Part shown: positions 29,494 through 49,986 of the stretch, piece by piece
Numbering within the stretch: position 1 is the stretch's first letter
Layout: every line of letters begins with the position of its first letter
NCBI GenBank assembly: GCA_030019205.1
Contig: JASEFH010000002.1
Coordinates: 124,001 to 188,000, forward strand
Source: Methanomicrobiales archaeon
GTDB taxonomy: Archaea > Halobacteriota > Methanomicrobia > Methanomicrobiales > JACTUA01
Length of the DNA: 64,000 nt
Reading direction: 5' to 3'
The notes under the pieces: model-generated
What the model saw: the letters and a program-made list of their open reading frames with translations, nothing else
Databases searched by the model: none
What the model was told of the DNA's origin: nothing
Position numbers and translations under genes: made by a program

Positions 29494-29587
29494 TCCGCCA
29501 TCGAAGGGCCACCTTCTTCAGGAGCATGCCACTCTCCCGGGAGCCGTCACGCCGCGATTCAGGAGAGCCGTTCCAGCCCTCTTCTCT

Positions 29588-31018
29588 TCAGCCGTAAATC
29601 CCGCCGATAGCGGAATGTGGAGCATATAGCGGAGCTCCCCGACCGTGGAGAAGTTCCGCATCTCCCGCAGCACCTGGACGATCGGTGCACGACGATGGAC
29701 CGGTCCCTCTCCCCGCTCTCGCGCACGCAGGCGAGACGGTGCAGGGAGAAGAGCCCGATGGCAAAGGCGAGGACGAAGAAGTCCCAGTCCTGGAGCGAGA
29801 GCGTGGGAACCGCATAGACCGCAGACGGATCCTTCCAGGCGAGCTCGCGGGCCGCGAAGAAGTCCACGCAGAGTCCGACGAGCGCCGGCGCGACCCCGGC
29901 GACAAAGGAGTTGACCACGCCGATCACGGCCAGCTGCGCCTTCGCCGTCTCGCGGGGTGCGAGTTTCATCCCGATGTAGCCGCCGGCGAGGGTTACACCG
30001 GCGGTGGAGAGCCCCATCACCCCGTGAATGAGGATGAGGAGAAGGGCGGTATACGAGTTCGGTCCCGGCACGGTGGCGAAGGTCCACCCCGGGATCGCCA
30101 GCATGAAGAGCGGGCCGGCCAGGGAGAGGGCGGGTCTTGTTGCTGTAGCGGTCGATCATCCTCCCCCTTCTGGGGTAGGAGAGGACGCTCGCCACCTGCG
30201 AGAGGACAGAGAGCCCTATCACCTCGGTGATGGAGAGCCCGATGTTCTGGAAGAGGTAGACGGTGAATAAGGGGGCCGCGAGGTTCGCCGCGAAGCTCCC
30301 GAGGGCAAGAAAGACGATCAGGTTGCGGAAGGTCTCGCCCTTGAGGGACCGGCGGAAAATATCGCAGAGAGAACTCTGTTCGTTCCCCCTGCAGCGCGGG
30401 CTCCGGGATCCGGCCGAGCATGCAGATCCCAATGTATCCGCAGAGCACGCCTCCGACGAAGATGATGGAGTAGCCGACAGGAACACCCTCGGGATGCCCG
30501 AGCTTCCACCAGTCCAGAAAGGCGCTCGCAGCCGGGGAGAGCACGATCCCGACCGGGAGGGCGAGGGTCCACCTGCGGGAGAAGAACGAACCCAGGGTCT
30601 CCCGGGGGACGAGGTCCCGCGTCCGGGAGCTCCACCTGCAGCCTCCGATAGGGGATATGGCCGCATAGAGGCCGGTCATGAGGACGAAGAGAGGAAGGGC
30701 GAGCTTCGCGTCGAAGAAGGGGGGGCAGGGCCGCGATGCCGAGCCATGGCGTTCGTGCAGCCGTTGATGTCAAAAGGCGGATCAGGCGGCGGTTCCGCAC
30801 GCGGTTGATCGCGCAGACAGCGGGAATCTGGATGAGCGCCGCCAGGATCCCGATCATCGGGTTTGAGGCCCCGAGCGGGAGGGCGAAGGCAGCCATGAAG
30901 ACGCCTCCCGTGAGGGAGACCACGGCGTGTGTGGCGATGTCGTCGTAGAGGACATGGCGGAGGGCGGCGGCCACTTCCTGGGAGAGAGGGAGGTCTTGGG
31001 TTCGATGCGGGGGAGCAT
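29588..31018 (-). pseudogene. MFS transporter, broken by several frameshifts
   Basis: Pieces of one major-facilitator protein lie in order but in alternating frames: a start MLPRIEPKTSL near 31018; LRHVLYDDIATHAVVSLTGG; LVPRETLGSFFSRRW; FLALGSFAANLAAPLFTVYL; MIDRYSNKTRPL; YIGMKLAPRETAKAQLAVIG; and an ending LRYMLHIPLSAIGGIYG. At least four or five indels are needed (about 30990, 30730, 30390, 30130 and 29690). Either the gene is dead or the assembly contains several errors; one shift coincides with a G7 run at 30719-30725. Related intact proteins are single 12-helix MFS permeases of unknown substrate. Confidence 0.8.
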
Positions 31019-31238
31019 GGTGTGAACTATCCGTGGGGTGCCGTATGATGTACGGTCTCCACCTTGAGCTCCGCCAGGGGTATCGGGAAACCGTGCGCAA
31101 CGGGTCGCCCCGGGGGATGCTGCACGGGTTCCCGGCATCATGGCCAAAAAGAGTTCCAGCGCCTCTTCAGCGTGCGCTACCAGCTCGGTGTTACGGGGAT
31201 GCGCATCGTCCGCCGCAACCCGGTGCTGTCTTCGGGGA

Positions 31239-31559
31239 TCACTTCTGCGAAATGTTCCCCGGACCGGGGATCACCAGGCAGGTGCCATTCACGCAGCCGC
31301 AGTGGCCGACCCCGCAGTCGATCGGCCCCTCGCAGCTGAGCGTGCAGACGACACCGCTGCAGTTCGGGGCTTCCGCAGCGACGGTGCAGGAGGTCGGGTG
31401 GCAGCACTGGGCCGGAACGCAGTCGGCATCCTGCGTGCAGACCGTCTGGTTGCCGGCGGGCGTGGTCGGGGTGGCGTTCGCGGGAGGCGCCGTGGTGCAC
31501 CCCGTGCAGAGGAGCAGGAGCGCGAGCCCCAGCAAGATGAAGATCGCATGCCGTTTCAT
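31239..31559 (-). CDS. Cysteine-rich lipoprotein
   Basis: The 106-residue protein has a lipoprotein signal (FILLGLALLLLCTGC, Cys about 21), a Thr/Pro linker, and a domain with about ten cysteines (CTQDADCVPAQCCHPTSC through CGVGHCGCVNGTCL). The pattern suggests a compact disulfide-bonded external domain, as in eight-cysteine-type archaeal lipoproteins. Function is unknown. It lies 71 nt downstream of the diadenylate-cyclase-like gene on the same strand and could be cotranscribed. Confidence 0.75.
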   Translation of the reverse strand: MKRHAIFILLGLALLLLCTGCTTAPPANATPTTPAGNQTVCTQDADCVPAQCCHPTSCTVAAEAPNCSGVVCTLSCEGPIDCGVGHCGCVNGTCLVIPGPGNISQK

Positions 31560-31629
31560 GGGAGGTTACTGGAGAATGGCAGGGATATCAGGGTTTCGGT
31601 GGAGCGGCGGGGTGCAATACACTTTTTTT

Positions 31630-32967
31630 TCAGCTGTGCGGCTGAGGGGGGTTCTGCGAGAACGGGCTGACCGTCCTCAGGAGCTTCCCGTCACGCAGGA
31701 TCGAGATCTTCCCGCCGCTCTGGGAGACCACGATCCCGATGGAACGGGTCATCCGCGTGATGGCGGCGATGGAGGAGTGGCGGGTGCCGAAGCCCGACGG
31801 CAGGCGGACGAGACTCGTGTCGACCGTGATGTATCGCGCCGCTGCTGCGATGGTGCCGTCTCCCTGGACGACGAAAGCGCCGTCGAGCTGCGCCAGCTCC
31901 TTGATCGCCTCCCGCATCTCGGGGCGGGTGATCCTGCGATCCTCGGGAGGATGCCCCTCGAAGGGGTTCAGGATCAGCTGGCGCGAGTGCGCCAGCACCG
32001 CATCGGCATCCCCTACGACAAACGCGGTACCGACCTTCCGCCCCTCCCGCCCCTCCAGGGCGAGTTCGAGGGCGATCCGGAATACGGCATCCAGGGTTCC
32101 CGCCTGGATGTCCGAGCCCTCCGGGATCAGATGCTGCCACCAGGAGTCCCAGGATCTGTTCAGGATAGGAGGCGGGGCAGGAAGGGTCGGGGACGGTCCC
32201 CCCGCTCCTCCTGCACCCTTCCGCCTCTGCACCAGGCTGCCTCCCGCCAGCAGGGCGATCCCGACGAGTACCAGGATGGCGAGTGGAAGGACGGGGAACG
32301 CCCCCCCTCCCGGGGGAACGGGAGTTGCGGTCTCCGTCGGGACGGGGGTCGTCGGCTGCGGGAGCGGGGTAGGTTCAGGAGGGGGGGTCGTGGGGAGCGA
32401 TGCCGGGGGCGGCTCCGTTGTGGCTGTGGGGGAAGGCGAGGGCAGGGGCAGCGTGGTGGGCTCCGGGGCGGTCGTCGGCGGAGGGGCGGGAGGGCGGATC
32501 ACGCGGATGGCCCTGCTGTAGGCGCTTCCCGGCAGGGGAAGGCCCTGTTCGTCCATCTCCTGGACCTGGATGGCGGTGAGCGAGGGGGACGCATTCGGCG
32601 GGACGCTCCCCTCCAGCCCGATCTCCACCTGGACCGGGGTATCGTTCGGGTAGGAGAGGGAGAAGCCGTACAGCACTGCCTCGCCTCCTCGAAGTTCGAG
32701 ATTCTGGCGGGAGACGCCGTCCACAACGATGGTGAAGTTCCATGCGGCCTTGAGCAGATCGGTGGAGAAGTTCAGGGTATGGTTGGCGGGAAAGCCCTGA
32801 GTGCCCGGGGATGCCAGCTGCAGCGTTCCCGATACCTGGATTGGATCCTTCGGCTGAACGCCCTCTGCAGGGGATACATCCATGGAGAGTACGGAGAACG
32901 CAGAACCCGGAGCGAGCATCCCTGCCAGGAGAACGAGAACCAGAACGAGCCGGGCACTGCTGACCAT
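31630..32967 (-). CDS. Membrane-anchored diadenylate cyclase-like protein with external domain
   Basis: This 445-residue protein has four parts: a signal peptide (residues 1-23); an external domain of about 130 residues (VLSMDVSPAEGVQPKDPIQV); a Pro/Thr/Ser-rich linker (about 165-235); and one transmembrane helix (FPVLPLAILVLVGIALLAGG, about 238-257). The cytoplasmic DisA_N/DAC-like domain (about 290-435) shows DGAFVVQGDG with DGA at 362-364, GFGTRHSSIAAITRMT in place of GTRHR, and IGIVVSQSGGKISILRDGKL. DAC domains make cyclic di-AMP, which archaea use for osmotic and potassium control. The third RHR residue is Ser here. I infer a receptor-type cyclase. Confidence 0.8.
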   Translation of the reverse strand: MVSSARLVLVLVLLAGMLAPGSAFSVLSMDVSPAEGVQPKDPIQVSGTLQLASPGTQGFPANHTLNFSTDLLKAAWNFTIVVDGVSRQNLELRGGEAVLYGFSLSYPNDTPVQVEIGLEGSVPPNASPSLTAIQVQEMDEQGLPLPGSAYSRAIRVIRPPAPPPTTAPEPTTLPLPSPSPTATTEPPPASLPTTPPPEPTPLPQPTTPVPTETATPVPPGGGAFPVLPLAILVLVGIALLAGGSLVQRRKGAGGAGGPSPTLPAPPPILNRSWDSWWQHLIPEGSDIQAGTLDAVFRIALELALEGREGRKVGTAFVVGDADAVLAHSRQLILNPFEGHPPEDRRITRPEMREAIKELAQLDGAFVVQGDGTIAAAARYITVDTSLVRLPSGFGTRHSSIAAITRMTRSIGIVVSQSGGKISILRDGKLLRTVSPFSQNPPQPHS

Positions 32968-33056
32968 AGGGACACCAAGAGTTTTTTCTCAGGGCAACAT
33001 GGAGTGCCCCCAATTAAATTGTAGTGTTTTTATCTATTGTATTGTATATTAAATTT

Positions 33057-33257
33057 TCATTCGACCGCGGATGCGGCGGGGAGCCTGAGCCGCACCATCA
33101 GTTCCGCTCGATGCTCCCGGACTTCTTCCGGTTCTCCAACTGCAAAGATGACGTCTTCCAATCCTTCGAAGGATCCGTTCCGCCATATGCGGGTGAAGGT
33201 GATACCATGCCGAGGCCGTCTCCTCTCGTCTTCACCCTCGAAGGTGCAGCTCTGTAG
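33057..33257 (-). other. Possible short coding remnant after LEA14
   Basis: Immediately after the LEA14 stop a different minus-strand frame reads FEGLEDVIFAVGEPEEVREH and RAELMVRLRLPAASAVE before its stop. The amino-acid pattern looks protein-like, but no good start codon or ribosome-binding site is visible (TTG 33161 would give 34 residues). It may be a small protein, a lost C-terminal domain, or chance. Confidence 0.25.
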
Positions 33258-33693
33258 TCTGGTTGAACGGCACCTCGAAAGCGGTGACGCCGAGATCCAG
33301 GGTGGCCGAACCCTCCACTGCAATCGTGACCGTACCGGCCCGTAGAGCCAGCAGCAGGGCCTGGATCAGGCTCCGGTTATCCAGGGTGACCGGAACGGCG
33401 ACGGCCGTTGAACCCCGGGGCGGGATCTCGAAACCTCCCCGCTCCCCATGTCCCAGAAAGACCCGCCTGCCGTCCTCGATAAGATAAAGGTCGAACGATA
33501 CCCGATCCAGGGTGGCCCCGAGGGGGTTGGGATTGCTGATGTTCAGGTGCAGGAGGAGCCCCGGGCTGCCCGGCGTGATATCCACGATCTCGAGGCCCTC
33601 CACAGTCACGGCAGGCTCCTCGTAGAAAGAAGTAAGGCAGCCGGCAACGCAGAACAGACCGACGGTAAGGAGGGGGGCGGCTATCTTTCTCAT
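33232..33693 (-). CDS. LEA14-like desiccation-related lipoprotein
   Basis: The 153-residue protein has a lipoprotein signal (MRKIAAPLLTVGLFCVAGC) and one LEA14/WHy domain: VEGLEIVDITPGSPGLLLHL, the hallmark NISNPNPLGATLDRVSFDLY, then FEIPPRGSTAVAVPVTLDN. The domain is a fibronectin-III-like beta-sandwich found in stress proteins of plants, bacteria and archaea. ATG 33693 places the signal correctly; upstream in-frame ATGs at 33711 and 33738 would add charged residues before it. Confidence 0.82.
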   Translation of the reverse strand: MRKIAAPLLTVGLFCVAGCLTSFYEEPAVTVEGLEIVDITPGSPGLLLHLNISNPNPLGATLDRVSFDLYLIEDGRRVFLGHGERGGFEIPPRGSTAVAVPVTLDNRSLIQALLLALRAGTVTIAVEGSATLDLGVTAFEVPFNQTTELHLRG

Positions 33694-33810
33694 CGCAGGT
33701 TTCACCGCCATCCCGGCACCGATACGTCCTTTTCGCACTGCCGCATTGAGGAATAAGGGAAGATCCGAAACGCCCCTCGGGGTCCGCAGGCCCCGTCCAC
33801 CGCTGCACCA

Positions 33811-47910: not shown

Positions 47911-49986
47911 TTAGCCGCTCCCGGAACCTGTGGGCTGCTCGGAAGGTTTTCCGGCCGGAGCATCCGCCGCTCCCCCCTCCTCCCTTTTGGGCGCCTGGAA
48001 GAGGGTGGAGGCCCGCGCAACAGGCTCTGGCATGCCCTGGACGACGACGATATCGTGGGGTCTGAGCTCCGTCTCCCCGCCGGGATTGGTGATTGTCCGC
48101 TGCCCCCGCAGGATCGCAAGGATGAGCACGTCGAACCGTTTCCTGAGGTTGATGTCGCCGAGTGTCCTGCCCGCCACGGGAGAGCCGGGCTCGATTGTGT
48201 AGGTGACGATGCTGACGTTGGACATGCGGTAGATCAGATCCGAGAGCGTCGAGGGGAGTTCTTTTGGGTTGCGGAGCATCTGGTAGGTGTCCGAGCGGAT
48301 CTCCGTGATGAGCCCCTCTATGCGGTCCCGGGGGATGAGGAACTTGTTCAGCACCCGGGTGAAGATCTCCACCGAGGTCTCGAACTCTTCCGGGATTACC
48401 TCGTTGGCGCCCAGATCCTGGAGGGGCGCCACCTCCGTCAGGTACCGCGTCCGCACGATGATGTAGAGGTAGGGGTTCAGGCGGCGGCAGAGTTCCACGA
48501 TCTGCCGCGTGGAGACCGGATCGTTGATCGCGATCACGGCGATGCGGGCCGACTCGATATCGGCATGCGTCAACACCGCCTCCGTCGTGGCGTCCCCGTA
48601 GTGGATCGGCTCGCCCGCCGCCTGCTCCCTCCGCACGGTCTCCGGGTTCATCTCGATGATGACGTAGGGGATCCCGCCGGCTCGCGCCGCCCGCGCCAGG
48701 TTCCTCCCCGTCACGCCGTAGCCGATGATCACCAGGTGCGCTGTTAAGTATTGGCGGGGGGACTGCTCGACAGGGCAGCGGGCATCCAGGAGGCGGTGGA
48801 TGAACCCGATACGGCAGAGCCGATCGGAGAGCAGCGGCCCGCCGCCGATGACAAAGGGTGTCAGGGCCATCGTGATGAGGGCGGTCACCAGGAAGAGCTG
48901 GTATATGTCCGGGGCGAGGATGCCGTAGTCGAGGCCGCTCCGGGAGAGGATGAAGGAGAACTCGCCCACCTGGGCGAGGGCGAGCCCGACCAGGGTGATG
49001 GTGCGGATCGGATAGCCCAGCACGATCGGGACAACAGCAGCAATCAGCCCTTTTCCGACGATCACGCCCACGATCAGGAGCAGGACCAGCCCGAGGTGCT
49101 CCAGCAGGAATCCCACGTCGAGCAGCATCCCCACCGACACGAAGAAGAAGCTGGTGAAGATGTCGCGGAACGGCACGATGCTCCCAATCGCCTGGTGGCT
49201 GTACTCGGATCGGGAGATCAGCAGACCCGCGAGCAGGGCCCCGAGCGCGAGCGATACGCCGGCGATGGATGCGAGCCAGGCGACGCCAAAGCACATGACG
49301 ACGATGAAGAGCAGGAATAGCTCGCGGTTCCTTGTCCGCGCTATCTGGTAGAGGAACCAGGGTATTCCCCATTTCGCGGCCGCAACGAGGATGACGACGA
49401 TGAGGACGTCGATGGCGAATATCGCGTAGAGGGACTCCATGCTGAACGCCTGCACCGCGGCCGGGGAGGAGATGCTGGCAAGGAAGGGGATCGCCATGAT
49501 CATCGGGATGGCGATGATGTCCTGGTAGATCAGGGTCCCGAGGATGATGCTGCCGTGCGGGGTGGCGATCTCCCCCCGCTGGTGGAGGATCCGCAGCACG
49601 ACCGCCGTGCTGGAGAGGGAGAAGAGGAAGCCCAGGAGGACGGCCTCGGCAAACGGCATACCGGCAAGGGTCGCGAGGAAGAAGGAGAGGAGGAACGTGA
49701 GGGAGACCTGGATGGACCCGCTGACGGCGAGAAGGTTCCGCATCTGCCAGAGGTGCTTGAAGGAGAACTCCAGGCCGATGGTGAACAGGAGCAGGATGAT
49801 CCCGATCTCTGCGAGGACGTTGACCTCTTCGACGGACTGCACGATGCCGAGCACGCTCGGCCCGACGATGACGCCCGTCAGGATGAACCCAACGAGCGGC
49901 GGGATGCGGAGCGGATTGAAAAGCAGCCCCACGATGAGGGAGATCCCGAAGATGAGGACGATGGCGTTTAACAGTTGCAGTTCCAT
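47911..49986 (-). CDS. CPA2 (Kef-type) monovalent cation:proton antiporter with RCK domains
   Basis: The 691-residue protein has an N-terminal membrane domain of about 12 helices. Kef/CPA2 text includes PPLVGFILTGVIVGPSVLG, LLFTIGLEFSFKHL, FSLSSTAVVLRILHQRGE and QDIIAIPMIMA (the acidic Q-D helix). A TrkA-N domain follows with the Rossmann motif VIIGYGVTGRNLARAARAGG (about 418-437) and GDATTEAVL, and then TrkA-C. It ends in a low-complexity tail. Such proteins move potassium or sodium against protons, gated by NAD(H) or other ligands at the RCK. Confidence 0.92.
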   Translation of the reverse strand: MELQLLNAIVLIFGISLIVGLLFNPLRIPPLVGFILTGVIVGPSVLGIVQSVEEVNVLAEIGIILLLFTIGLEFSFKHLWQMRNLLAVSGSIQVSLTFLLSFFLATLAGMPFAEAVLLGFLFSLSSTAVVLRILHQRGEIATPHGSIILGTLIYQDIIAIPMIMAIPFLASISSPAAVQAFSMESLYAIFAIDVLIVVILVAAAKWGIPWFLYQIARTRNRELFLLFIVVMCFGVAWLASIAGVSLALGALLAGLLISRSEYSHQAIGSIVPFRDIFTSFFFVSVGMLLDVGFLLEHLGLVLLLIVGVIVGKGLIAAVVPIVLGYPIRTITLVGLALAQVGEFSFILSRSGLDYGILAPDIYQLFLVTALITMALTPFVIGGGPLLSDRLCRIGFIHRLLDARCPVEQSPRQYLTAHLVIIGYGVTGRNLARAARAGGIPYVIIEMNPETVRREQAAGEPIHYGDATTEAVLTHADIESARIAVIAINDPVSTRQIVELCRRLNPYLYIIVRTRYLTEVAPLQDLGANEVIPEEFETSVEIFTRVLNKFLIPRDRIEGLITEIRSDTYQMLRNPKELPSTLSDLIYRMSNVSIVTYTIEPGSPVAGRTLGDINLRKRFDVLILAILRGQRTITNPGGETELRPHDIVVVQGMPEPVARASTLFQAPKREEGGAADAPAGKPSEQPTGSGSG

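Follow-up and report, generated by a model that had tools for sequence, protein, structure and literature searches.

The window, as we call the whole 64,000-nucleotide stretch of Methanomicrobiales DNA analysed here, carries a gene that probably encodes a single-pass membrane receptor-type diadenylate cyclase (DAC) with surface-regulated c-di-AMP synthesis. We put the probability of this sequence-based reading at about 0.6. The 445-aa protein is read from one minus-strand ORF (window 31630..32967) with an ATG start. Its signal peptide, external beta domain, stalk, single membrane helix and DAC domain, which a sequence-only reading had described, are all present in this one protein, and the receptor-like order of domains is well supported by a Pfam match to the DAC domain (PF02457) and a confident beta-sandwich model of the external part (Table 1). 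Between residues 166 and 226 (61 residues), we counted 23 Pro and 14 Thr. Because positive charges (RRK) come after the membrane helix, the C terminus is placed inside the cell. The signal peptide, the stalk and the positive-inside rule thus predict an outside-sensor, inside-enzyme topology. Single-sequence folding of the whole protein was uninformative (pLDDT 41).

Table 1. Predicted features of the window DAC protein and their positions in the window.
Feature	Residues	Window position	Strand	Basis
Signal peptide, MVSSARLVLVLVLLAGMLAPGSA	1-23	32899..32967	(-)	Translation
Extracellular all-beta domain	24-165	32473..32898	(-)	AlphaFold2 model and homologous domains
Pro/Thr-rich stalk	166-222	32302..32472	(-)	Residue composition
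Single membrane helix, then RRK (248-250)	226-246	32230..32292	(-)	Sequence and hydropathy
Short cytoplasmic linker	247-288	32104..32229	(-)	Lies between membrane helix and DAC domain
DAC (diadenylate cyclase) domain	289-435	31663..32103	(-)	PF02457, NCBIfam DacZ model (below cut-off), PDB matches
DGA motif	362-364	31876..31884	(-)	Column counts
GTRHS motif; Ser replaces second Arg of RHR	394-398	31774..31788	(-)	Column counts
VSQSGG motif (VSEETG in CdaA)	414-419	31711..31728	(-)	Column counts

Every segment of the ORF has a high GC content at its third codon positions (0.67 to 0.86), as do the neighbouring genes. We therefore take a long ORF on the opposite strand (31033-33024) to be most likely a shadow. 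Among the genomes searched, the beta domain is joined to a DAC domain only in this one, so conservation cannot vouch for the exact fusion, and such a distribution would fit an artefact of assembly or annotation. However, the ORF is uninterrupted and its coding character is even along its length, the genome is 99.6% complete and 0.4% contaminated, and analogous fusions are present in relatives. We regard a chimeric assembly behind the fusion as unlikely, and an artefact of either kind as extremely improbable.

In the Pfam profile search, PF02457 matched residues 303 to 429 (E=5.7e-19), scoring 68.3 bits where 27 are required. The DAC domain proposed at first reading was thus found again, far above the threshold. 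The NCBIfam DacZ model (NF041371) matched residues 289 to 435 at 1.7e-30 with 106 bits, which is below its equivalog cut-off of 430. TIGR00159 (CdaA/DacA) gave 29 of the required 188.8 bits, and the NCBIfam models for CdaA, CdaM, DisA and CdaS matched weakly. Diadenylate cyclases in the PDB matched residues 361 to 435, the conserved half of the domain.

A DAC domain was found in 146 of the 150 genomes of the order, and the proteins that we read fall into two kinds. The DacZ-type proteins are about 270 aa long and mostly carry DGV, GGRHRA and VSESGG. The window-type proteins have varied N termini and mostly carry DGA, G[TS]RH[S/N/A/V/G]S and VSQSGG. We built a maximum-likelihood tree from 89 DAC domains and 130 alignment columns, in which the 75 window-type rows form one clade (support 100/98), apart from all 14 DacZ-type rows. 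Mapping of homologues in the Methanomicrobiales, which had been suggested earlier, has thus uncovered a separate clade; it occurs in the Methanomicrobiales and in Methanoperedens. With only 130 columns, the inner forks of the tree are weak, and none joins the window row to a close partner with support. The most similar DAC domain (74% in the tree alignment) belongs to L055, a 280-aa protein with a helical N terminus and no signal peptide. A whole-protein search of the genome contigs found no relative, whereas the DAC alignment search did. Besides its MIT-like DAC proteins, Methanoperedens also has a DAC of a third, divergent kind, about 212 aa long, with GTKHAAA, VSEE[ST]GW and a hydrophobic stretch at the C terminus (L200-L206). 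One DacZ-like protein, L180, carries GGRHAS.

The listed ATP contacts of Listeria CdaA are made by the side chains of Leu31, Asp71, Thr102, Arg103, His104, Ser122 and Glu124 and by the main chain of Leu88, Gly101 and Glu123; the second Arg of RHR is absent from them (PMC7288161). Our alignment is uncertain at Leu31 and Leu88, and the comparison covers the remaining positions. Nearly all of the named contact residues are retained in the aligned window DAC, with D362, G394, T395, R396, H397 and S415 in the corresponding positions. The check for a missing ATP-binding residue thus came out in favour of the DAC at these six positions; Glu123 (a main-chain contact) is Q416 and Glu124 is S417. Ser also stands at the latter position in 17 of 17 DacZ-type proteins. 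In Leptospira CdaA, the contact residues D172, R203 and S222 were picked for mutation (PMC12974146), and their counterparts are all kept in the window protein. Across the clade, the Asp of DGA (118/118) and Ser417 (118/118) are constant, Ser415 is invariant, and Gln416 is found in 102 of 118 members.

The window DAC has R396, H397 and S398 in place of the full RHR motif, and the sequence-only reading had taken the GTRHS ending as a reason to doubt activity. This doubt carries little weight, since GTRHS in place of GTRHR is the norm of the clade and the second Arg is no listed CdaA contact. In the Ser398 column, the 118 members have chiefly S, N, A, V or G, with no Arg listed. The second Arg is likewise replaced in 5 of the 17 DacZ-type proteins, including GGRHLA enzymes that are the sole DAC of near-complete genomes. 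Therefore, we do not treat this residue as a requirement of the superfamily. Changing RHR to AAA abolished the activity of M. tuberculosis DacA, a change in which Arg and His were lost too (PMC3328451). To judge from the clade, a large natural group either does not need the second Arg of the textbook RHR motif or has substituted it.

Two pocket positions show clade-specific changes, mostly Gln for Glu at the CdaA Glu123 position and Ser, Asn or Ala for the second Arg. Such an altered GTRH[SNA]S / VSQSGG pocket might yield another dinucleotide, such as a mixed or linear one. We consider this very unlikely, because the alignable ribose and phosphate contacts are kept and no DAC domain is known to us whose main product is anything but c-di-AMP.

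The same genome encodes a canonical soluble DacZ (C3:35793-36170, start MTAELMMNTAARIAA..., motif GGRHRA), so the window protein is predicted to be an additional DAC enzyme in the cell. In one family (f5), 14 genomes of at least 95% completeness carry a single PF02457 match each. We assigned ten of them to the GTRHxS kind by direct reading and the others by score. If those cells make c-di-AMP, enzymes of the clade must do so. Because Haloferax volcanii cannot live without dacZ (PMC6741144) and these genomes have a single DAC, synthesis of c-di-AMP by the clade is the simplest reading. The single-DAC lineages could instead have dispensed with the signal. We found no published assay of any clade member, and no report that the clade has replaced DacZ in whole lineages, in the open-access literature.

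The window protein belongs to a clade whose DAC domain has been fused repeatedly. REC-PAS-DAC is the commonest architecture (Methanoregula, Methanolinea and Methanospirillum). A signal peptide, PKD repeats, a membrane helix and a DAC domain are combined in Methanolinea and others, and a signal peptide, TPRs, a membrane helix and a DAC domain in Methanospirillum; MIT-like plus DAC proteins occur in Methanoperedens. The receptor-like layout itself is therefore not unique. Because the PKD and TPR versions sit apart in the tree, this layout probably had at least two origins, each involving a different external part. In addition, a TrkH potassium transporter carries a C-terminal DAC domain (GTRHGS) at L032:6678-8753 (+), at L038:368-2566 (-) and in L253, which is cut by the contig end. 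All three carriers lie in the window's own family. As predicted from sequence, this fusion is a direct physical link of K+ uptake to a DAC domain; we found no report of it in the open-access literature. Being joined to REC-PAS, PKD-TM, TPR-TM, MIT-like and TrkH parts would be typical of an output domain. In many clade members, an MIT-like helical segment directly precedes the DAC domain (L126:5707-6459, L055:216-1055 and the cytoplasmic part of L147); in L126 this segment matches PF04212 at E=1.8e-5, below the cut-off. The window protein does not have this segment.

The TrkH-DAC proteins of relatives can also be read as transporters with a regulatory nucleotide-binding domain. The window DAC might be dead or weak and might sense ATP or c-di-AMP, passing cytoplasmic nucleotide status outside or to partners. 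The missing second Arg throughout the clade, the Gln at the Glu123 position in most members and the DacZ already present in the genome would fit such a role. However, a decayed enzyme would not be expected to keep the catalytic Asp, Thr/Ser, Arg, His and Ser with little or no variation across 118 sequences, and many genomes have a window-type DAC only. We therefore hold a dead or weak domain to be unlikely and favour a catalytically active receptor.

The external domain was modelled with AlphaFold2 from a 27-row alignment as an all-beta sandwich of nine beta-strands (mean pLDDT 93.7, pTM 0.86). Pfam and PDB sequence searches gave nothing reliable, and the domain falls in no Pfam family. A fold search against the PDB gave weak matches with TM of about 0.5 to 0.6, such as the Sgo0707 adhesin (0.59) and the RetS sensor domain (0.51). 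Because these matches are weak, we claim only a beta-sandwich and no ligand. The domain family is Methanomicrobiales-wide (48 of the 61 genomes searched) and includes short proteins made of a signal peptide, the domain, a stalk and a membrane helix, as well as membrane proteins of about 370 aa. The latter (L077, L079-L081, L086-L090 and L092-L096) consist of the external beta domain, a helical segment, one membrane helix and a conserved C-terminal WDELG. In another genome (G108; L046), a protein with the same external domain (2324-2689, +) adjoins a REC-PAS-like DAC gene (278-2131, -). A joint alignment of the external and DAC domains looked misaligned and was set aside.

Proteins of this family are common in the order, and no ligand-binding family matched the external domain in the Pfam and PDB sequence searches. 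Both observations would suit a mere anchor or S-layer attachment that localises synthesis by an active DAC to the membrane without sensing. Related DACs carry REC-PAS sensor-type modules or other external domains, which suggests input and makes a mere anchor unlikely.

We suggest that the window protein works as a receptor. The external beta-sandwich on its stalk may bind a partner, either extracellular or on the cell surface. DAC domains need to come together head to head as pairs (PMC8573169). Partner binding could alter this meeting of two cytoplasmic DAC domains across a receptor dimer, in which the external domain, the stiff stalk and the one helix per chain could shift DAC pairing. In this scenario, synthesis of c-di-AMP from two ATP at the membrane would be switched up or down, alongside the soluble DacZ. 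Plausible targets would be K+ or osmolyte transporters, for example the exchanger encoded at 47911-49986.

This exchanger gene (-) lies about 15 kb from the receptor gene and encodes an Na+/H+ exchanger that also contains TrkA_N and TrkA_C domains; we take this arrangement to be like that of the c-di-AMP-regulated CpaA of bacteria. RCK-type domains are c-di-AMP receptors in bacteria. No conserved gene neighbourhood of the DAC gene was found in relatives. The adjoining Lon gene is kept in relatives, but without LEA_2 or DAC genes beside it; in the window, a LEA_2 domain protein with a lipoprotein-like N-terminal start lies upstream of the DAC gene (33232-33738, -). An MFS-looking transporter coding region (29518-31100, -) is split over three overlapping frames and is either a pseudogene or the product of sequencing frameshifts; the pieces tested had no Pfam match. 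A promoter and terminator scan, which covers sigma-70 only and is ill-suited to archaea, found nothing.

Most work on archaeal c-di-AMP has dealt with soluble DacZ, studied in vivo in Haloferax, and with M. jannaschii CdaZ. We consider it an even proposition that the Methanomicrobiales and Methanoperedens have a separate DAC clade of interchangeable signal outputs that repeatedly captured external, PAS or TrkH parts and replaced DacZ in many species, with the window protein as a direct surface-to-cytoplasm c-di-AMP receptor whose sensor domain is unseen on other DACs. A clade wired to external, PAS and K+-transporter parts would offer concrete, testable inputs for archaeal c-di-AMP synthesis. 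In PMC6741144, five archaeal DAC classes, DacV to DacZ, are cited as named by Corrigan and Grundling in 2013; DacV comes from Methanosphaerula, DacW from Methanospirillum and DacX from Methanoregula. Methanospirillum and Methanoregula also have DACs of the window clade, which probably contains DacV, DacW and DacX. The earlier statement that known archaeal synthases are soluble DacZ types was thus too narrow, given these classes, as cited there, and the PKD and TPR proteins that join a secreted sensor, a membrane helix and a DAC. No literature on DacV to DacX beyond PMC6741144 was found among open papers.

The window protein shares with DacZ/CdaZ a homologous DAC domain, a DGx motif and the Ser at the CdaA Glu124 position. 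However, DacZ is soluble, with a PK_C-like N terminus, Gly in place of the Thr (GGRH) and, in most cases, RHRA, whereas the window protein has a signal peptide, beta domain, stalk and membrane helix and lies outside the DacZ rows in the tree. Firmicutes CdaA/DacA are likewise membrane-bound with a cytoplasmic DAC, and their activity is tuned by partner proteins (PMC8573169). They differ in having three N-terminal helices and no external domain of their own; the window protein has one membrane helix after its signal peptide. With the multidomain DACs of Methanomicrobiales it shares the clade, GTRHxS and mostly VSQSGG, and several of these also combine a signal peptide, ectodomain, membrane helix and DAC. 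Their added parts are REC-PAS, PKD or TPR, and the window external domain is seen on none of them. Bacterial receptor-type diguanylate cyclases, with an external sensor, a membrane helix and a cytoplasmic dinucleotide cyclase, offer a comparison in how such a protein works, but their catalytic fold (GGDEF) is unrelated and their product is another. The window protein is new in its external part, and its output clade is of an already known type.
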